Shown in pieces: positions 9,762 to 37,029 of a stretch of DNA of 64,000 bases. The translations under genes were made by a program, and so were the position numbers. The stretch is from contig JABEVE010000053.1 of assembly GCA_013044035.1 (NCBI GenBank), positions 19,166-83,165 of the forward strand, given 5' to 3'. The notes under the pieces were generated by a model. The model was given only the letters and a program-made list of their open reading frames with translations. It had not been told where the DNA came from and made no database searches. Within the stretch, counting starts at the first letter, position 1; the number at the start of each line of letters is the position of its first letter. Source of the stretch: Burkholderiales bacterium. GTDB lineage: Bacteria; Pseudomonadota; Gammaproteobacteria; Burkholderiales; Burkholderiaceae_C.

Positions 9762-10538
9762 TCAGCGCGGAATTTGCACCTGGTAGGCGCGAGCGGCGAT
9801 CACCCCCGTGCGGGCGTTGATGTAGGGGCCGTACAGATGGTTCTGGAAAAAGCGCGGTGCCGGCAGCATCACTGCCAGGCGCGCAGCCTGCCAAGGTGAG
9901 AGGCGCGACGCCGACACATGGAAATAGTGCTGCGCGGCCGCCTCGGCGCCATAAATGCCCTCGCCCCATTCCACGCTGTTGAGGTAGATCTCCAGGATGC
10001 GGCGCTTGCCCAGGATGCCTTCGAGCATGTAGGCAATGACCAACTCCTGCGCCTTGCGCAGATAACTGCGTTGCGGTGAGAGAAACAGGTTCTTCGCCAG
10101 TTGCTGGGTGATGGTCGAACCGCCGATGATGCGGTGTAGCCGCTCATCGCGGCGGCTGTGATTTTTCTGCCAAGCTTGCTGGATGGCAGTCCAGTCGACA
10201 CCGTCATTGGTCAAGAATGTGGCGTCTTCCGAGGCCACGGCCGAGCGCTTGAGCCAGGGGCTGATGCGATCGTAGGGCACCCAGTCGTGCAGCCAAGGCG
10301 CGCGGAGCCAATGCTCGGCTGCACTCTGGCGATCCTGACCCCTAAACGATATGGGCGAGGCGCCCGGATCGCCCTTGAGAATGCGCAATTGCGCCGCACG
10401 CATGAAGGCTGTGCTGGATGGCGGGATCACAGTCCACAGGGCGATGCGCAGGGCGAAATAACCTTGCAGAACGATGACGGCCCAGAAGCACAGCCACAGG
10501 ATGGAGCGCAAGCTGGAGTGTTGGCGCGACGCGGCCAT
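9762..10538 (-). CDS. mtgA: Monofunctional biosynthetic peptidoglycan transglycosylase
   Basis: GT51 motifs ASEDATFLTNDGVDW, GGSTITQQLAKNLFLSPQRS, KRRILEIYLNSVEWGEGIYGAEAAA; start chosen at MAASRQHSS. Confidence 0.92.
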   Translation of the reverse strand: MAASRQHSSLRSILWLCFWAVIVLQGYFALRIALWTVIPPSSTAFMRAAQLRILKGDPGASPISFRGQDRQSAAEHWLRAPWLHDWVPYDRISPWLKRSAVASEDATFLTNDGVDWTAIQQAWQKNHSRRDERLHRIIGGSTITQQLAKNLFLSPQRSYLRKAQELVIAYMLEGILGKRRILEIYLNSVEWGEGIYGAEAAAQHYFHVSASRLSPWQAARLAVMLPAPRFFQNHLYGPYINARTGVIAARAYQVQIPR

Positions 10539-10590
10539 GGCAGACGGAGCGTGGTTGTGAGAAGTCGGGGTTATCGAGGAGGCAGGGGGC

Positions 10591-11514
10591 TTACAGCGCA
10601 GGCCCGCGCAACTCGGCCAGCAGTGTGGCCAGAACCGGTGTGGTGTCGGGGCGCACGCCGTGCCAGAGCCAGAAGCTCTCCGCCGCCTGTTCCACCAGCA
10701 TGCCCAGACCATCTTGCGCATCGGCACCGGCCTTGCGGGCCTGGGCGATGAAGGCGGTGGCTTGCGCGGCGTACATCAGGTCGTAGGCCAACATGCCGGG
10801 GCGCAGCACGCCGGGCGGAAGTTCCAGCGTGGCGCCGCCCAGGCTGGACGCGGTGGCGTTGATGACGAGATCGAACCCCGGCGCGGGCTCGGTCACGGCC
10901 GCGAGCGCCACGCCATGTTCGCGGGCGATGCCGGCATGGCGCGCGACCAGAAGGTGGGCTTTGTCGGCGCTGCGGTTCCACACGGCAATGGCTTGCGTGC
11001 CGGCCGCGATCAGCGTTCCCAGGACCCCGCTCGCTGCGCCGCCCGCACCCAGCAGCAAGATCGTTTTGCCCTTGAGTGCCTGCGCGTCGGCATTGGGCTC
11101 TTGCGGGCTTGCGGATGCGTGCGCCAGAATGCGCGTCAGATCCCGCACCAGGCCGATGCCATCGGTGTTGTCGCCCCAGAGTTCGCCGTCGTCGCTCCAG
11201 CCCAGGGTGTTGGCGGCCTCGGCCAGCGCCGCACGTGGCGACAGGCGGCGTGCGGCGCGTGCGGCCTCGAACTTGAACGGTACCGTGACGTTGCAGCCGC
11301 ACCCGCCCTCGGCACGAAAGGCCCCCAGCCCCTGTGCGAAACCATTCGGCGCAAGCCGACGCTTGTCGTAGCGCAAGCTCAGCCCGCATTGCGCCGCGAA
11401 CAGGGCATGGATGCGGGGTGACTTGCTGTGCTCCACCGGGTTGCCGAACACGGCGTAAAGATCGGGCAGGTGCGTAGCCATGGGCATGCGTGTCAACGGG
11501 GTTGTGCTGCTCAT
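10591..11514 (-). CDS. aroE: Shikimate dehydrogenase
   Basis: YAVFGNPVEHSKSPRIH, GCNVTVPFK, LLLGAGGAASGV; 4-nt overlap with upstream tonB-like gene. Confidence 0.93.
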   Translation of the reverse strand: MSSTTPLTRMPMATHLPDLYAVFGNPVEHSKSPRIHALFAAQCGLSLRYDKRRLAPNGFAQGLGAFRAEGGCGCNVTVPFKFEAARAARRLSPRAALAEAANTLGWSDDGELWGDNTDGIGLVRDLTRILAHASASPQEPNADAQALKGKTILLLGAGGAASGVLGTLIAAGTQAIAVWNRSADKAHLLVARHAGIAREHGVALAAVTEPAPGFDLVINATASSLGGATLELPPGVLRPGMLAYDLMYAAQATAFIAQARKAGADAQDGLGMLVEQAAESFWLWHGVRPDTTPVLATLLAELRGPAL

Positions 11515-12407
11515 GGTGCAGGGCTGCCGTCATGGCCTGGCTGCGCCTGGATGTGCGTTTCCAGGCCGCCTTCGCGGGTGAAGTCGAAGCCGGCGACGAT
11601 GACGAGTTGATCGGCATCGCGCCGCATGGCGGCGCTGAAGTGTCCGTAAGGCTGTGCTGCGTTGACGATGGCCCGCGCCATGCGATCGAGCTGTGGGTTG
11701 CCCGAGCCGCGCACCACCTCGCTCCTGAGCAGTCGCCCCGAGGCATCCACGGTGATGGCCATGATGAGTTTGCCGTAGAGCTTGCTGCCGTCACGTTGCG
11801 GAAAATCAACCGTGCCCAAGTGCTCGATTTTTTGCCGCATGTGGTCGTAGTACAGCGCATACGGCACGCTGCGGGTGTTGGGGCCAACGAAGCGGCGGCG
11901 CGGCCTGGCGTTTTGTTGGTCGATGCGGCGCTCGATGGCGCCGAGCAGATCCAGCAGGCGTTTGCGCTGATCTTCCAGTGCCTGCGCGGCCGCTGGCTTG
12001 GTCTGTTGCGTGGCCAGCCGCTGCAACTGCACCATCTGGCTCTTCACCTGGGTGATGAGTTCACGCTGTTTCTGCTCGTCCTGCGCCAACTGGGAGCGGC
12101 TCTGGTTTTGCAGTGCGTTGCCATCGGCCACGGTGGCTGTGGCCGGCAGCGGTGTGGTGGCCAGGCCTTTGGCGTCGTCACCTCCGCCGGCAAGATTGAC
12201 CTGCGCCAGTGCCTGCGGTTTCTCGGGGGCCTCGGCCGACGACTGATTCACCAGCACCACCGACAGCGGGGTGTCCTGGAACATGCGATTGAAGGTCTCG
12301 GGTGAACCCACTTTCAGCGCCAGCAGCGCCGCGTGCGCCGTCGCCGAAATCAGCAGCGCCCACTGCAGCTTGCTGAGACGAATGGCGCGGAACGAGGGCA
12401 TGCGCAA
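11511..12407 (-). CDS. TonB-like energy transducer
   Basis: 298 aa; N-terminal TM, Q/A-rich central region, C-terminal TonB-like domain (YGKLIMAITVDASGRLLRSEVVRGSGNPQLDRMARAIVNAAQPYGHF). Confidence 0.75.
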   Translation of the reverse strand: MRMPSFRAIRLSKLQWALLISATAHAALLALKVGSPETFNRMFQDTPLSVVLVNQSSAEAPEKPQALAQVNLAGGGDDAKGLATTPLPATATVADGNALQNQSRSQLAQDEQKQRELITQVKSQMVQLQRLATQQTKPAAAQALEDQRKRLLDLLGAIERRIDQQNARPRRRFVGPNTRSVPYALYYDHMRQKIEHLGTVDFPQRDGSKLYGKLIMAITVDASGRLLRSEVVRGSGNPQLDRMARAIVNAAQPYGHFSAAMRRDADQLVIVAGFDFTREGGLETHIQAQPGHDGSPAP

Positions 12408-26549: not shown

Positions 26550-27557
26550 CTAGGCGGCGCGCATCGCCAGCACACCAAAACGTCGCAGTGGATCGGTCCA
26601 CTGCGCATCGAGTCGCCAGCCGGCCAGTGCGGCCAGTGCCGCAAAACCGTCCAGCGTGTATTTGTACGAGTTCTCGGTGTGGATGGTCTCGCCGGCCTCG
26701 AAGCCCAGCGTATGGCTGGCGATATGCACGACCTGGGCCTCACGGCTTCGCAGGTGCATCTCGATGCGTCCCTGCACGCTGTCGTAACGGGCGAGATGAT
26801 CGAAAGAGTCGGGCGCGAAATCGGCCGCGAACTCACGGTTGGCACGCACCAGCAGGTTGCGGTTGAACGCTGCGGTCACGCCTTGCGCATCGTCATAAGC
26901 GGCCTGCAGCACGGCGGCGCTCTTGCGCAGATCGACGCCGATGAGCAGGCCGGCATCGGCCCCGCCCAGCAGGCGCCAGCGCGTCAGCAGCGCCTGGGCA
27001 TGTTGCGGATCGAAATTGCCGATGGTGGAGCCGGGAAAGAAAAACACCACACGTCCGTCGATCTCAGCCTCCGCACGGCCGGCATCTCCCCGGCGCAGCG
27101 CATGCGGGAGCGTGAACGCCTGGGTGAAGTCGGCCTGCAGCGGGTGGATGGGCAGATGCGCAAACCGCGTAGCCATGGCTCGCACGGACGCCTGCAAGGC
27201 CGTGGGCGAAATTTCCACCGGCACATAGGCCGCAGGCTCCAGCAGTCGTTCCAGGAGCAGGGCGGTTTTCACGCCAGCGCCACTGCCAGGCTCGACCAGG
27301 ATGGCGCGCGGGCCGATGCACGTGGCCATGTCGCCCGCATGCGTTTGCAAGATGGCCAGTTCGGTGCGCGTGGGGTAATACTCGGGCAGTTCGCAAATCC
27401 GTTCGAACAGTGCCGAGCCGCGAGCGTCGTACAAATAGGCGCTGGGCAGATGCTTGGGACTGTCGAGCAGGCCTTCGAGCACGGCAAGTCGCAGCGACGT
27501 CGGCGCCAGATCCTCCGGCACGTCCTGCGGCTCATGCAGCGGGCTTGTGCGTTTCAA
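26550..27557 (-). CDS. egtD: L-histidine N-alpha-methyltransferase EgtD
   Basis: SAYLYDARGSALFERICELPEYYPTRTELAIL, LVEPGSGAGVKTALLL, FFFPGSTIGNF; candidate TTG start overlaps egtB TGA (TTGA). Confidence 0.92.
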   Translation of the reverse strand: MKRTSPLHEPQDVPEDLAPTSLRLAVLEGLLDSPKHLPSAYLYDARGSALFERICELPEYYPTRTELAILQTHAGDMATCIGPRAILVEPGSGAGVKTALLLERLLEPAAYVPVEISPTALQASVRAMATRFAHLPIHPLQADFTQAFTLPHALRRGDAGRAEAEIDGRVVFFFPGSTIGNFDPQHAQALLTRWRLLGGADAGLLIGVDLRKSAAVLQAAYDDAQGVTAAFNRNLLVRANREFAADFAPDSFDHLARYDSVQGRIEMHLRSREAQVVHIASHTLGFEAGETIHTENSYKYTLDGFAALAALAGWRLDAQWTDPLRRFGVLAMRAA

Positions 27558-28891
27558 GTCTGGTCCTTTGCCAGCCGCAGGCCCATGAACTGCCAGCGCT
27601 GGTGGGGGTAGAAGAAATTGCGGTAGGTGGCGCGCAGATGGCCCGGTGGGGTGACGCAGGAGCCGCCGCGCAGCACCATCTGACCGGACATGAATTTGCC
27701 GTTGTATTCCCCCAGGGGGCCTTGCGCGACTTTGTAGCCGGGGTACGGGAGGTAGCTGCTGCCGGTCCATTCCCACGCGTCGCCGTACACCTGGGTGTGG
27801 CCAGGGGAGGGCGCTGCAGGGCGGCAGTAGCCGGCGTCCAGCCCGTTCCCGCTCAGTGCTTGTGTGCTGGCGAAGGCCTCCCACTCGGCTTCGGTCGGCA
27901 ACCGCGCCCCGGCCCAGCGGGCAAAGGCGTCGGCCTCGAAATGGCTGATGTGGCAGACGGGCGCGTTGGGATCGAGCGCCTGCTCGCCAGCCAGGGTGAA
28001 GCTCGATGCAGCGTCGGCGCTCCAGTACAGCGGAGCACGCCAGCCTTCACGCTGCACTGCGTTCCAGCCGTCGGACAGCCAGAGCAGCGGTTCGTCGTAG
28101 CCACCATCGCGGATGAAGTCGCGGTACTCGGCATTGCTCACCAGGCGGTCGCCGAGGGCATGCGGCGCCAGCCAGGTTGGGTGGCGCGGCGCTTCGTTGT
28201 CGAAGCGGAAGCCCATGCCGGCATGGCCGATGGCATGCGCGCCCTGCACCCCGCAGACGAAACGCAGAGGCCGCGCCGCCTGCGAAGGCGGTGCCGGGAG
28301 CAGGCGCCACGCGGGCTTGAGCGGGTTGTGCGCGAGCAAATGCAGCACATCGGTGAGCAGCAGTTCCTGGTGCTGCTGTTCGTGCTGCAGGCCGAGTTCG
28401 AGCACGCGCGGGAGGTGACTCGTCGGGCCGGCATCGCTGTGGGCATTGGCTGCATGTTCGGCGGTGTCCAGCCCGTCGTGCATGTCCAGCAGCTTGCGCA
28501 GATGCAGGTCCACATGGGCGCGGTAGCGCCGCACTTCGGCCACCGTGGGGCGGGTCACGAGACCGCGCTGCGGCCGTGCATAGCGTGGCCCGGCGCTGAC
28601 GTAATACGAATTGAACAGTTCGGCGTAGCGCGCGTGAAACACGCAGTAGCCAGGCAAGAAGGGCAGCAGCGCAAAGGTTTCGAAAAACCAGCTGGTGTGG
28701 GCCAGGTGCCATTTCGCCGGGCTGGCATCGGCCATGCTCTGCGGCGTCATGTCTTCCGGCTCCAGGCTGGCGCAGAGGTCGAGCGTCAGGGCACGGGTGG
28801 CCATCAGGCGAGCAGCGATGGCGCCCGCCGGAAGTGGGGAGGACTTTGCGATGGCATCAGTAGAACAGTCGGGCAACGCTGCAGCAGACAT
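27554..28891 (-). CDS. egtB: Ergothioneine biosynthesis protein EgtB
   Basis: 445 aa; DinB-like N-terminus with PAKWHLAHTSWFFETF, HEQQHQELLLTD, FGE-sulfatase-like C-terminus with VYGDAWEWTGSSY and MVLRGGSCVTP. Confidence 0.93.
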   Translation of the reverse strand: MSAAALPDCSTDAIAKSSPLPAGAIAARLMATRALTLDLCASLEPEDMTPQSMADASPAKWHLAHTSWFFETFALLPFLPGYCVFHARYAELFNSYYVSAGPRYARPQRGLVTRPTVAEVRRYRAHVDLHLRKLLDMHDGLDTAEHAANAHSDAGPTSHLPRVLELGLQHEQQHQELLLTDVLHLLAHNPLKPAWRLLPAPPSQAARPLRFVCGVQGAHAIGHAGMGFRFDNEAPRHPTWLAPHALGDRLVSNAEYRDFIRDGGYDEPLLWLSDGWNAVQREGWRAPLYWSADAASSFTLAGEQALDPNAPVCHISHFEADAFARWAGARLPTEAEWEAFASTQALSGNGLDAGYCRPAAPSPGHTQVYGDAWEWTGSSYLPYPGYKVAQGPLGEYNGKFMSGQMVLRGGSCVTPPGHLRATYRNFFYPHQRWQFMGLRLAKDQT

Positions 28892-30620: not shown

Positions 30621-31090
30621 CTCTACATTGACCCCGTGATGTACACAGCCATGTACGCATTCCAAAGGTTGCCCATAGCGTTATGCATATCGGCCTCTGT
30701 GCCTACGCCGGACAAACCCGGCGCAGCTCGTGATTTTAAGTTCTAAGGTGCACCTCGCACCTCCCGGCAGATGCCCGGCACTTTGGCGACGGCGACCTCG
30801 GCATGGTGCTGGGTGAGGCAAACCGACGGGAACTGCAGACCATCGAGCCCGTCGAAGCGTTCGACGACCGGGGTCGGGGGCATGCCATCGGGCATCGGCA
30901 CGTTCGCCGAAACTTCAAGTCCAAGGCCGCTCGCGAGCGCAGGACCGATGGTTCGAAATCCGAGACAAAGTCAACAGGAGAGGGTCTCGCTCATCAACTG
31001 CAGCGCGACGCAGGTTCCCTCGAACGGAACACGATCACCGCGCAAACAGGTCATGCACTTGGGTAGTGCGTTGGAGTAGGGTCATGTTGA

Positions 31091-31960
31091 TTAATGGGCG
31101 AACTCGGATTTTTGCATTTTGACAAGTGTCTCCAGAACGCGGAGCTCGTTATCCGTGAGACACATTGCAGCAGCAACCCAATCATTCACAACATAATTCA
31201 ATTCTTCATAATTGAGAGCACTCATTCTGGCTTTTGCATCCTGAAGGGCATGCCTGGCTTTTCTGCGCTTGCTGTGCTCAACAATAAATTCCCCGATTGC
31301 ACTTTCCCCGGCCCCAGGCGGGCAAACACGATCGATGATGCCAAGTTCCTCCAATTCATGAGCCGAATAGATCTTGCCATTGCGCATGATTTTTTCTGCT
31401 TCATGAACTCCAACTCGACGAGCCAACAGGCTCATCCCGCCGGTGCAAGGGAAGAGGCCAAAAAGAATTTCCGGGAAACCGAATTCAGCTTGTTCTTCAG
31501 CGACGATATAGTCCGCTGACAGCGCCGTTTCAAACCCGCCACCCAAGGCACGTCCCTGAACCAGGGCTATCGTGGTGCTCTGTCGAGTGATTGCTGTAGC
31601 CCATTGGTAAATCATCTCGAGGCATTGCACAGAATAAATACGCAGAGACTCGGAATCATCTCGCCGGATGCACCCTAAGAAATGATTGAGATCGCCTCCG
31701 ACATTGAAATATGCAGGATGTCTGGAGCGTAAAACGGCGTAGTGAATCGGATGATCTTGGTCATCACCGTACCACATGCTTTTGTTTTCGCTGATGTGTT
31801 TAATCAACTCTTGGAGTGAGTGAAGCATCAATTGGGAAAAATTCTGCGGCCGATTTTTCTGGATTGCCATGCTGATCCACAACACATTCAGTGCAGGATC
31901 GAAGTCAGTCTCGACAAGAGGCGCCGAGAGCGTGACGACATTCGCGTCTGTGCCTAACAT
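31091..31960 (-). CDS. rpfF: RpfF-like DSF synthase (crotonase family)
   Basis: IALVQGRALGGGFETALSADYIVAEEQAEFGFPEILFGLFPCTGGMSLLARRVGVHEAEKIM resembles Xanthomonas RpfF; both catalytic-glutamate contexts (GGGFE, PEILF) present; start MLGTDANVV chosen. Confidence 0.82.
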   Translation of the reverse strand: MLGTDANVVTLSAPLVETDFDPALNVLWISMAIQKNRPQNFSQLMLHSLQELIKHISENKSMWYGDDQDHPIHYAVLRSRHPAYFNVGGDLNHFLGCIRRDDSESLRIYSVQCLEMIYQWATAITRQSTTIALVQGRALGGGFETALSADYIVAEEQAEFGFPEILFGLFPCTGGMSLLARRVGVHEAEKIMRNGKIYSAHELEELGIIDRVCPPGAGESAIGEFIVEHSKRRKARHALQDAKARMSALNYEELNYVVNDWVAAAMCLTDNELRVLETLVKMQKSEFAH

Positions 31961-31967
31961 GGCCGAT

Positions 31968-33197
31968 TCATTCGAGGGAGGGGGACCGCACCACCAAAGC
32001 CGCATTGGTTCCGCCGAATCCTGCCGATAGGCTCATGGCATGTCGTACAGGCTGATTGCGTCTTGTCTCCGTGACATGCCGAATGCCGTTGCACTCTGGA
32101 TCGATGTCGGAAAGGTGTGCCGTCGCTGGGATGAATGAATGACGCAAAGCTAGGACACAAACCAGCATTTCCATTGCGCTGGCAGCTCCGAGCATGTGCG
32201 CATGCAAGGCTTTCGTGGCGCTCACAGGAACCGATTGCGCTGCCGTGCCGAGGACTTCCTTCAAGGCCGCCACTTCGATCGGATCTCCACCGCGCGTTGC
32301 CGTCGCATGTGCATTGATGTAGTCGAGTTCCTCGGCATTGATGCCGGCAGTACGAAGTGCCGAGCGCATCGCAGCCACCTGCCCGCGTTGGTGGGGTGAA
32401 CCGATGTGGTGGCCGTCGGAAGCAATGCCCCAGCCTGCAACATAGGCATGGATTGGGACGCGGCGTCGTAGGGCATGTTCGCGCGATTCCAGCACGAAAA
32501 ACACGCTTCCCTCCCCCAAGACCAGCCCTGTGCGCTGGCGCGAAAATGGTCGACAACTTTGAGATGGAACGGCGTCGACCTCGGCTAGCGCGCGAAGCCC
32601 GTCCCATGCACCAAGAAATACAGGTGTCAGCGCAGCCTCCGCGCCTCCAGCAATTGCAATGTCGATTTCCCCGCTTCTGATGTGTCTACAGGCATCAGCA
32701 ATTGCAGATCCTGAGGACGAGCAAGCCGATGTATGACTTGCTGTTGGCCCATACACCTGTTGGCGAATAGAGATTTGTGCGGCTGCAGCGTTAGCCATAC
32801 AGCCCATGATCACATAGGGCTTGGCGGTTTTCTTCTCACCAGTGAAAAACTGACGTGTCCATTCCCATTCAGTTGCGCCACCGCCACGAACTGTCCCAAA
32901 AAAAACGCCAGCACGTTCGCCAAATGAGGAATAGTTCACGATTCCTGCGTTTTCCGTAGCTTGCTGGGCTGCCAAGATCGCCAACTGGGTCGTACGATCC
33001 AGAAAAGGCAACTCGATGCGCGTGAAGGAGTCACTGAACTGTGCATCAACGGGTGCCATCGGGAATGATCTCGACAAGGCTTGAGATTCAAACGCCCTGA
33101 CGCCTGACCGCGAAGTGAGCAGACTTTCCAAGACGGTCGCCTCGGTCATCCCGATCGGAGAGATGACGCCGATGCCAGTGATTGCGATCTCAATCAT
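31968..33197 (-). CDS. FabF-like beta-ketoacyl-ACP synthase
   Basis: 409 aa; SHTSACSSSGSAIADA (active-site Cys), NAHATATRGGD (His), SATKALHAHMLGAA (Lys/His), SAGFGGTNAALV. Confidence 0.9.
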   Translation of the reverse strand: MIEIAITGIGVISPIGMTEATVLESLLTSRSGVRAFESQALSRSFPMAPVDAQFSDSFTRIELPFLDRTTQLAILAAQQATENAGIVNYSSFGERAGVFFGTVRGGGATEWEWTRQFFTGEKKTAKPYVIMGCMANAAAAQISIRQQVYGPTASHTSACSSSGSAIADACRHIRSGEIDIAIAGGAEAALTPVFLGAWDGLRALAEVDAVPSQSCRPFSRQRTGLVLGEGSVFFVLESREHALRRRVPIHAYVAGWGIASDGHHIGSPHQRGQVAAMRSALRTAGINAEELDYINAHATATRGGDPIEVAALKEVLGTAAQSVPVSATKALHAHMLGAASAMEMLVCVLALRHSFIPATAHLSDIDPECNGIRHVTETRRNQPVRHAMSLSAGFGGTNAALVVRSPSLE

Positions 33198-33456
33198 GAC
33201 CGCCCGCTTGCATGTTTTGAATCACCATGTCGGCAACGTCGCGTAATGTTGGATTTTTGGGCAGATCAATGTTATTTAAATTCTGACCGATGACATCCTC
33301 CAGACTCATGATGACATCGAGAATGCCCATGGAATCCAAGCCCAAGTCCCCAATTGGCATGGTGTCTGGCTTGTCAGATAAATCAATGTTGAACGTCGAT
33401 AAAACTATGTGCTTGATTTCCTTGATGACTTCTGACTCATCCCAAATCTGATTCAT
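33190..33456 (-). CDS. Acyl carrier protein
   Basis: 88 aa; phosphopantetheine site DLGLDSMGILDVIMSLED; 8-nt overlap with ketosynthase start. Confidence 0.85.
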   Translation of the reverse strand: MNQIWDESEVIKEIKHIVLSTFNIDLSDKPDTMPIGDLGLDSMGILDVIMSLEDVIGQNLNNIDLPKNPTLRDVADMVIQNMQAGGHD

Positions 33457-33575
33457 AATTTTCTTTGTCTGTTGAATTTATTGAAAATAAAAGACCATGC
33501 ACTAACCCTTTGCGGTCATTGTTTTTAAGTAATTTACTGCAAAAATATTTTAATTTTTAATCTGCGACGTGAAGG

Positions 33576-33592
33576 ACGATATTTTTTATCGT
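33576..33592. promoter_or_regulatory. Inverted repeat in divergent acp/rpfG intergenic region
   Basis: ACGATA-TTTTT-TATCGT perfect 6-bp arms in a very AT-rich 150-bp spacer. Confidence 0.4.
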
Positions 33593-33606
33593 GATGAATT
33601 TTTAAA

Positions 33607-34674
33607 ATGAAGACTGTTAACGGTGGTAACTGGAAGATTCCGCCTACGATCATGATCGTCGATGATCAGGCGACGAATTGTCATTTATTGGCCGAGATCT
33701 CGCGTAGTATCTGTCAGCAGGCAAATATTACGTCATTCGAAGACCCAGTGGTTGCTCTTACATATGCCAATAATCATGCCGTTGACCTCATATTAACCGA
33801 TTATCGCATGCCCCGAATGAACGGGGTGATGCTGATCAAAGCCCTCAGGTCCATGGATCACCTGGCAGAGCCGCCCATCATCTGTATCACGGCAGTCGAC
33901 GATTTGGCTGTGCGGTACGAGGCCTTGGATGCTGGCGCCAACGACTATCTTAGCCATCCATTGGACTACCGCGAATGTGCCGCCCGATGCCGCAACCTCC
34001 TCAACCTGCGCCGCTTTCAGCTCGCCACTCTTCGGCATGCCGATGAGTTGGAGCGCAGGGTTGAGCAGGTCATCCAAGATCTGCAAAAGGAAAAAATGGA
34101 AACGCTGTTCCGGCTTGCCAAGGTGGCCGAGCAGCGTGACACCGATACGGGAGCGCATCTCAGCCGCATCGGCCGTTACTCGGCGTTACTGTCCCGCCGC
34201 TTGGGGTGCAGCGAGGCGTACACGGCTGTTTTGGAGATGGCTGCACCACTCCACGACATCGGGAAGGTTGCCATACCCGATCAAATTTTGCTGGCAAAAC
34301 GCAGCTTGACACCGGACGAGTGGACTGTCATGAAGACCCACACCGTAATTGGCCATGGCATGCTGTCCGGCGGGCATACAGAACACATGAAAGTCGCTGC
34401 CGAGATCGCACGTTCACACCACGAGAAATTTGATGGCAGCGGATATCCAGATGGGCTTTCTGGACAAGACATCCCGCTTTCGGCTCGAATCTTGGCCGTG
34501 GTTGATGTGTACGACGCGCTGACCTCCCGGCGGCCGTACAAAGAGGCTTGGACACACGAGAAGGCGCAGCACTACATGCGCCAACAAGCCGGTATGCATA
34601 TGGACCCGGAATTGGTCAATGTCTTTTTGGCTGATCTGCCAGGGTTAGCTGCAATCAGCGAAAATTTTGTTTAA
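33607..34674 (+). CDS. rpfG: RpfG-like response regulator with HD-GYP domain
   Basis: 355 aa; receiver (IVDDQATNC, LILTDYRMPRMNG) plus HD-GYP (PLHDIGKVAIPDQIL, ARSHHEKFDGSGYPDGLSGQDIPLSARILAVVDVYDALTSRRPYK). Confidence 0.88.
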   Translation: MKTVNGGNWKIPPTIMIVDDQATNCHLLAEISRSICQQANITSFEDPVVALTYANNHAVDLILTDYRMPRMNGVMLIKALRSMDHLAEPPIICITAVDDLAVRYEALDAGANDYLSHPLDYRECAARCRNLLNLRRFQLATLRHADELERRVEQVIQDLQKEKMETLFRLAKVAEQRDTDTGAHLSRIGRYSALLSRRLGCSEAYTAVLEMAAPLHDIGKVAIPDQILLAKRSLTPDEWTVMKTHTVIGHGMLSGGHTEHMKVAAEIARSHHEKFDGSGYPDGLSGQDIPLSARILAVVDVYDALTSRRPYKEAWTHEKAQHYMRQQAGMHMDPELVNVFLADLPGLAAISENFV

Positions 34675-34745
34675 CGTTCGACCGATCAACTTCTCCTCAA
34701 ACCCCAGTCTTGACTGGCATGGCCACAGGGTATAGGAAGACCATT

Positions 34746-36902
34746 ATGGAAAAGCCAAGCATCTTTGATTATGCAACCGCGCTGAAGGGACAGGCAAAAT
34801 TGCGCATGTGGCTAGCGAGCATATGCATTGCGATTTGGCTCTGTGTAATTTTAGTTATGAAGCCTGCTTCGATTTTTGTATTTATGGTGGCATTTGTTCA
34901 CCTGAGTTATGCCGTGACGCTCTATGCTATGACGCATCGAGGTAGAAATATTTGGCCCAAATGGCTCGGTTATCTTACGGCTGTACTCGATCCGTTGATC
35001 CTGACGGCTTGGGTCATTGTGATGGGCCAAACAGCTGTACTTGTAATTCCTCTGTTTATTTTTACGTCGATTGGCTACGGTATGCGAACCGGCAACAAGG
35101 CGATCATGCGAACCGCACAAGGCGTTGCCCTCGCTGGACTTGCGATGGCGCCCCTTTTCTCATCTTACTGGCAAGAGCATATGTTGTTTTGGGCTTCCAG
35201 TTTGATTTCAATTTTAATGATTCCCGGTTATGTTGCTGTCTTGATGGACAATCTCAACCAGGCGCTCATTTTTGCTGAGCATGAGAGCCGCGCGAAATCT
35301 GATTTACTTGCCAGGGTCAGTCATGAATTGCGAACGCCACTGGGTGGAATCTCCAATGCCGCGGAACTGTTGCAAGCTGAGGCAAGCACCGAGAGACCCA
35401 AGCGACTGGCCACCACAATACTGACGCTGAGCGGCCACTTGCTCTCCGATATCAACGATTTGCTGGATCAAAGCAAGCTGACGTTGACCAAGATGCAGCT
35501 GAAAACAAACCCTATCCAGCTTGCGGATCAAGTCGATGTAGTCAGGGCCGCAGTGGAGGCGAATGCCAGAAAAAAGGGGATTGGCTTTTCAAGTGTGATC
35601 GACCCGAGAATTGTCGACCAAGTTGTTGGTGACACGCATTGGCTGGCGCGTTTGTTGATTAACTTGGTGAGCAATTCAGTCAAATACACTGAATATGGAT
35701 CGGTGGCTTTGAATATTGCGCTCTTGCGTGAATCGCCTTCGGACTATCTCCTGCGATTTAGTGTCAAAGACTCGGGAGTTGGAATTCCTAAAGAATATCA
35801 GGATAAAATTTTTGATCCCTTTGTACAACTCAACGCGAAGAACCTGCAACAGCCTGAGGGCACAGGCCTGGGACTGGCGATCAGCAGGCAGGTTGTCGAG
35901 TTGATGGGCGGGACGCTGCGGGTCAGTAGTGATGTCGGTGTCGGTAGCACATTCTGGTTCGACCTTCGCATGCCTCGCGTCCGTGCGAATCAGGATGAAG
36001 TCGAAATCGCGGGCCGTTTTATTGCATTGAATCGGCAGAATCTGCAGGAGCGGCGACGCATCCTGATCGTTGACGACAACGAGACCAACCGCTATTTGCT
36101 GCAAGAATTATTGCAAAAGGAAGGCCACTCCGTGATCCTGGCCGAAAGCGGCGCGCAGGCACTGGATATTCTTGCAGGCGCGGACAGCTTTGATTTACTT
36201 TTGCTTGACTATAACCTCGGTGACATCGACGGTAGCACAGTGTTGCAGACATACCGGTTTGGCTGCCGTAACCCTGCCCCGGCTTATTTCCTAACGGCTG
36301 ATGCGTCTGCATTAACGGTTTCACGACTGAAAAATACAGGTGCGATGGGGGTCCTCACAAAACCAGTTCTCGCGCATGAATTGCGTGATGCGATCAATAA
36401 CTGCTGCCATCCGCGCGATGCTCAGCAGAAATTCTTGTCTCCGCAAACCGGCATTGGCCGCAATGATTCGACACCTGAATCTACTGTTTCACAGCATCTG
36501 CGTCCGATTCCAACGATTTACATCGACATGAAGGTGATCGATAAACTCAAGCAAATCGGTACGAGGCGCGATTTCGTCAAGGAATTGTTGGAGCGTGCCA
36601 GCACGGATATCAACCGCAACACCACGCGGATTCTTGACGCTTTGGCGTCCGGTGATCACAGTGACGTGCACGACGCCGCACATGCACTGAAGGGCGTTTG
36701 CATGGAAGCCGGTGCGATGCGTTTGATGAACCTGGCCATAGGCATCATGCGTACTGATGGGACAATTCTGGACGAGCAAAGGCAAAGACTGGTACAAGAT
36801 TTGAGTGAATCGAGTGCGAAAACCAGAGAGGCCTTGCGTGAGGTGATTGCAGAAACGGCGCGCCTTGATGGGACTGCCTATCCGGATGTCGAATATGGGT
36901 GA
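34746..36902 (+). CDS. rpfC: RpfC-like hybrid sensor histidine kinase
   Basis: 718 aa from MEKPSIF; multi-TM input region, SHELRTPLGGISNAAELL H-box, ATPase GTGLGLAISRQVVELMGG, receiver LLLLDYNLGDIDG, C-terminal HPt HDAAHALKGVCMEAG. Confidence 0.85.
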   Translation: MEKPSIFDYATALKGQAKLRMWLASICIAIWLCVILVMKPASIFVFMVAFVHLSYAVTLYAMTHRGRNIWPKWLGYLTAVLDPLILTAWVIVMGQTAVLVIPLFIFTSIGYGMRTGNKAIMRTAQGVALAGLAMAPLFSSYWQEHMLFWASSLISILMIPGYVAVLMDNLNQALIFAEHESRAKSDLLARVSHELRTPLGGISNAAELLQAEASTERPKRLATTILTLSGHLLSDINDLLDQSKLTLTKMQLKTNPIQLADQVDVVRAAVEANARKKGIGFSSVIDPRIVDQVVGDTHWLARLLINLVSNSVKYTEYGSVALNIALLRESPSDYLLRFSVKDSGVGIPKEYQDKIFDPFVQLNAKNLQQPEGTGLGLAISRQVVELMGGTLRVSSDVGVGSTFWFDLRMPRVRANQDEVEIAGRFIALNRQNLQERRRILIVDDNETNRYLLQELLQKEGHSVILAESGAQALDILAGADSFDLLLLDYNLGDIDGSTVLQTYRFGCRNPAPAYFLTADASALTVSRLKNTGAMGVLTKPVLAHELRDAINNCCHPRDAQQKFLSPQTGIGRNDSTPESTVSQHLRPIPTIYIDMKVIDKLKQIGTRRDFVKELLERASTDINRNTTRILDALASGDHSDVHDAAHALKGVCMEAGAMRLMNLAIGIMRTDGTILDEQRQRLVQDLSESSAKTREALREVIAETARLDGTAYPDVEYG

Positions 36903-37029
36903 TGGCTGGTGCAGTCTCATGGCATGCACCAATGCCGTGGTTCTTCAAAAATGGCTAGCCTCTGCTGCTTTGTCACGGCCAGGTTTGCATGCGATTCGTG
37001 AAATCCGCTGGATCCCGTTTCGCGTGCCG

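Follow-up and report, generated by a model that had tools for sequence, protein, structure and literature searches.

Co-inheritance of an altered acyl carrier protein and ketosynthase with RpfF suggests a dedicated route to an unusual DSF-family signal in Burkholderiales

General fatty-acid synthesis is thought to be the source from which DSF-family signals are skimmed, and their structures would therefore follow the fatty-acid pool of the cell. The RpfF of Xanthomonas is reported to act on 3-hydroxyacyl-ACP drawn from the general fatty-acid synthesis (FAS) cycle, which it dehydrates and hydrolyses (PMC4542539). A locus within the 64,000-nucleotide stretch of Burkholderiales DNA analysed here (the window) raises the question of whether a synthase of this family is served by an acyl carrier protein (ACP) and a ketosynthase (KS) of its own. 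The inheritance of an altered carrier and KS together with the synthase, in the host genus and in Thiomonas, suggests that an unusual signal is made via a dedicated route.

Three genes of the locus lie on the minus strand: acp (33190..33456; 88 aa), KS1, encoding a FabF-like ketosynthase (31968..33197; 409 aa), and rpfF, encoding a putative DSF-family synthase of the crotonase fold (31091..31960; 289 aa). The acp (33456-33190) and KS (33197-31968) genes share an 8-nt overlap; the KS stop codon (31970-31968) is followed by 7 nt (ATCGGCC) and then by the rpfF ATG at 31960. An alternative, longer rpfF reading begins with an ATG at 32005 (304 aa); the start at 31960 fits the rpfF alignments of G013 and G023, two genomes of the window's sublineage with a KS-rpfF gap of 8 nt. 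Re-computation returned exactly the coordinates, overlap and spacing given by the initial annotation of this DNA. On the opposite strand, divergent and 150 bp away, are rpfG (33607..34674, plus strand), a response regulator gene with an HD-GYP domain (motifs HDIGK and HHE...GYP), and an rpfC-like hybrid sensor kinase gene (34710..36902, plus strand), whose true start may lie further downstream than 34710. The Pfam domains at the locus are PP-binding, ketoacyl-synthase, enoyl-CoA hydratase, receiver with HD, and HisKA/HATPase/receiver. Together with the HD-GYP motifs and the hydrophobic N-terminal region of the kinase, they give the architecture of RpfC and RpfG, with a weak, sub-threshold Hpt domain (20.1 vs 24.6). 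Between the divergent acp and rpfG genes, the intergenic region (33457..33606) holds no sigma-54-like site and no sigma-70 site above chance, and across the window sigma-70 promoters and terminators were no commoner than expected by chance.

Across the genus, the same 21 of 28 genomes were positive for RpfF, KS (E under 1e-100) and RpfC, and the same 7 of 28 were negative for all three; as related genomes are not independent, no p-value is attached to this co-occurrence. The 26 KS-associated RpfFs form a single clade (support 100/99). KS lies directly upstream of rpfF in 24 of them, and in the remaining two (T. intermedia and G002) rpfC intervenes. The acp and KS genes overlap by exactly 8 nt in 17/21 genomes, and ACP, KS and RpfF are all under purifying selection (pairwise dN/dS 0.01-0.16). 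The association still holds where RpfF identity falls to about 49%, and it spans two genera and two differently arranged units. In the family sample (401 genomes), the KS clade occurs in the host genus and in one other genus, Thiomonas (2/13 genomes), and it was absent elsewhere from the class (369 genomes), phylum (299, at E 1e-82) and order (399) samples. These samples overlap with one another and with the family sample; in all, none of about 1,000 other sampled genomes had the KS clade. The first distribution search limited its scoring to a few top candidates in each genome. RpfF itself is common in the class (66/369 genomes), and the 39 RpfFs outside the module have no KS nearby (the flanks covered about 1.5 kb in 29 cases and more in the rest), which rules out KS as a general companion of RpfF loci. 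The association of ACP, KS and RpfF is not chance.

The module (window 31000-37000) has a GC content of 47-57%, compared with 62-68% on the rpfF side. This step hinted at a recent foreign island, an origin that was set aside because in relatives of high GC the module is close to the genomic GC and the contrast is less strong. A plasmid-borne module was rejected, KS having no plasmid match at E 1e-60. In two high-GC relatives (L046, 491-3520; L050, 10-3026) the gene next to rpfC appears HDOD-like by eye and lies beside a large membrane sensor-like protein. Elsewhere in the window (26550-28891), two genes appear by eye to be EgtD-like and EgtB-like, as in ergothioneine synthesis.

The residues C163, H303, K335, H340 and F400 (E. 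coli FabF numbering) are kept in 28/28 module KSs, and with its catalytic residues in place the KS should be active in condensation rather than serve as a chain-length factor. The ACP matches the Pfam PP-binding model PF00550 (32.7 vs 20.8 bits, E 8.7e-8) and carries its phosphopantetheine serine in 21/21 module ACPs, within a GLDSM site in the window. The active-site motifs first noted in both proteins are thus confirmed. The best PDB match of the KS is T. thermophilus FabF 1j3n (E 1.9e-79), and its fold and Cys-His-His-Lys site are those of FabF (KAS II). It differs from FabF, however, by a score below the cut-off of the NCBIfam FabF equivalog (351 vs 493.75 bits), by an identity of 34-36% to the same genome's own FabF, and by replaced gate and docking residues. 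Phylogeny, one of the checks proposed with the initial annotation, placed the rpf-KSs in a separate clade of their own with full support (100/100) on a long stem (1.33), apart from FabF. A housekeeping FabF and AcpP misread as a dedicated pair was rejected as an explanation, since the genome's own FabF and a distantly similar AcpP were found on contig C89.

Two KS paralogues accompany the module. KS1 adjoins ACP and rpfG; KS2, which has no neighbouring ACP, adjoins rpfC and stands directly before rpfF. Two genomes, G020 and G021, have their ACP-KS1 pair away from rpfF, in G021 by about 30 kb, and KS2 is found beside rpfF instead. A KS1/KS2 chimera was considered as the source of the window KS and was not retained, the sliding identities deciding neither way. 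A further ACP-KS pair follows an oxidoreductase-like gene in L082 (G000:C84, about 10087-11749), its KS sharing 41-42% identity with the rpf-KS; pairs of this type are present too in relatives without rpfF, and this one is possibly a separate small biosynthetic cluster.

In FabF, the acyl pocket is gated by I108 and F202, and K65, R68, K69 and T270 make the region-1 contacts to E13, Q14, D35 and D38 of AcpP (PMC7138838). Both gate positions are replaced in 28/28 rpf-KSs, I108 by Arg and F202 by Trp, and G198 is replaced by Phe. At the docking positions, R68 has become Pro, T270 Gly, and K65 and K69 hydrophobic residues. The ACP of the window has likewise lost its region-1 acidic residues: D38 is Gly or Ala and Q14 is Thr or Ser in 21/21 module ACPs, E13 is lost in 20/21 and D35 is kept. 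The AcpP of the same genome retains E13, Q14, D35 and D38, and the module ACP falls below the NCBIfam AcpP cut-off (25.2 vs 70.45 bits). The loss of docking residues on the KS and of acidic residues on the ACP means that both contact faces have changed, and of all the sequence evidence this two-sided change speaks most strongly for a candidate private KS-ACP pair. The changes of pocket residues alone do not predict the product.

The synthase shows a comparable mixture of retained and replaced residues. Its best PDB match is X. campestris RpfF 3m6m (E 2.3e-42), and the catalytic Glu141 and Glu161 are kept in 26/26 module RpfFs, from which a DSF-family synthase is predicted, acting as dehydratase and thioesterase on 3-hydroxyacyl-ACP. 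The window RpfF scores below the cut-off of the NCBIfam equivalog SgnlFctrSynRpfF (179.5 vs 550 bits), a model that looks narrow, and above that of the broader PRK08788.1 (283.7 vs 177). Met170 (Xanthomonas numbering) may contact the DSF precursor (PMC9864630). It is kept in 38/39 RpfFs outside the module but is replaced by Thr, Ser, Asn or Gly in 26/26 module RpfFs, with Thr in the window. Nearby positions 165, 169 and 173 switch too in the module clade, as does position 275. Of the other precursor-contacting residues, Trp258, Leu136 and Leu276 are all kept, and the canonical RpfF pocket is to that extent preserved. The clade with the private KS is therefore also the clade with the altered substrate site. 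Good support for the proposed link between RpfF and a private ACP/KS pair comes from co-occurrence, from single-clade inheritance, from the loss of the docking patch on both partners and from the changed pockets of KS and RpfF.

The initial annotation had further proposed a single operon with translational coupling. This stands for ACP-KS across the genus and for KS-rpfF in the window's sublineage, where the gap is 7-8 nt. It does not extend to KS-rpfF in 14 other species, in which the KS1-rpfF gap is 144-252 nt, or to T. intermedia with its intervening rpfC, and such coupling is thus not a general trait. A comparably short gap is otherwise confined to the second paralogue, with 11 nt between KS2 and rpfF in G005, G020 and G021. 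All 14 KS1-rpfF gaps longer than 100 nt (L042-L052, L056, L057 and L029) contain TGGCA-N6-TTGC, the -24/-12 form of a sigma-54 site, 50-64 nt before the rpfF start, and some also have an upstream inverted repeat of the GTCAAA...TTTGAC type. Only 7 other matches to this motif were found in 784 kb, counting both strands of these loci, and there was none in the window. The presence of the site in every long gap makes a separate, regulated promoter for rpfF probable in these species, and suggests RpoN control of signal synthesis there. A second unit, rpfC/KS2-rpfF without ACP, is seen in L029, L055, L057 and L116/L039. Several species have two rpfF genes, and two signals may therefore be made.

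We consider it probable, with considerable room for doubt, that the cluster encodes a dedicated DSF-family pathway. Its product would be a cis-2-enoic acid of a non-canonical kind, with RpfC/RpfG as the sensing pair. The private ACP would carry the growing chain, and the private KS, bound to it via the rebuilt docking surface, would perform the last or a special malonyl condensation. The acyl group handled by this KS may be unlike the usual C10-to-C12 fatty chain, being shorter or bearing a polar group, because Arg occupies gate position 108 and the pocket would be narrowed by the larger side chains of Phe and Trp. FabG, the ketoreductase of the housekeeping set, would then form the 3-hydroxyacyl-ACP, which RpfF, with its small polar residue in place of Met170, would dehydrate and hydrolyse to the free cis-2-enoic acid. 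Sensing of this acid by RpfC/RpfG would lead to c-di-GMP breakdown. Co-occurrence and single-clade inheritance, together with the changed KS and RpfF pockets and the loss of docking residues, favour a distinct DSF-family molecule, as had been suggested at the outset. The analysis itself establishes the order and joint inheritance of the genes, the catalytic residues, the replacements and the phylogeny; the substrate, the FabG step, the product and the specificity of the receptor are what we infer from these. Counting against a dedicated pathway, the cluster contains no ketoreductase, dehydratase or priming gene, and the separation of ACP-KS1 from rpfF in G020 and G021 (where KS2 does adjoin rpfF), the ACP-less KS2 and the unchanged Trp258, Leu136 and Leu276 of RpfF point in the same direction. 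We put forward only tentatively, as somewhat less than an even chance, the idea of a self-contained pathway in which synthase, KS and ACP have co-evolved towards a new chemical type of signal (short or polar/charged), separate from general fatty-acid synthesis and with a matching RpfC.

An alternative account is that the signal is ordinary and only its supply is private. The ACP and KS would then raise or insulate the flux of 3-hydroxyacyl-ACP, and RpfF would release a known DSF-family acid (DSF, BDSF or a homologue). RpfF keeps both catalytic glutamates and several pocket residues, RpfC and RpfG are of the known kind, and in Xanthomonas both the accessory FAS enzyme FabG2 (PMC5941067) and FAS flux (PMC4542539) raise DSF output with the class of signal unchanged. 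The invariant replacements at the KS gate and at Met170 of RpfF are hard to explain if the chain is unchanged, however, and we regard this account as unlikely, though the most credible of the alternatives.

Less probable still is that the ACP and KS make another lipid or small metabolite under Rpf control, with RpfF using housekeeping acyl-ACP. The ACP-KS1 pair can be separated from rpfF, as in G020, G021 and T. intermedia, and rpfF has its own sigma-54-like promoter in 14 species. Yet the ACP-less KS2 also stands directly before rpfF, presence and absence agree perfectly, RpfF is altered in the same lineage, and rpfF is the sole tailoring or release gene that accompanies ACP-KS. That the genes are adjacent merely by descent or hitch-hiking, with no common function, draws on the recent common ancestry of the genus, which makes the counts non-independent; an association that persists to about 49% RpfF identity, over two genera and two unit arrangements, and with dN/dS of 0.01-0.16, makes this very improbable. 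We thus retain the dedicated pathway as the preferred reading.

Set against known systems, the module shares with the Xanthomonas rpf system an RpfF with Glu141/Glu161, an RpfC-like hybrid kinase, an RpfG with receiver and HD-GYP domains, and the clustering of rpf genes, but differs by its private ACP and KS and by the replaced Met170 region of RpfF. The RpfF/RpfR systems of the Burkholderia type, which use BDSF, have a synthase of the same family, and PDB 5fus and 6dgn are among the best RpfF matches. In those systems EAL-type receptors adjoin RpfF and there is no ACP/KS, whereas the window has RpfC/RpfG; EAL-type receptors were seen beside the RpfFs of Methylobacterium and Sphingomonas. Like the module KS, Xanthomonas FabG2 is a FAS-type enzyme feeding RpfF, but it is a ketoreductase, not a condensing enzyme, and its abstract mentions no private ACP (PMC5941067).

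A search of the open-licence literature yielded no account of rpfF accompanied by an ACP/KS pair. If our proposal is true, this would be, as far as that literature shows, the first DSF-type signal with a private assembly line. Such an assembly line would make the structure and specificity of the signal genetically separable, which could be tested in cultured Thiomonas intermedia.
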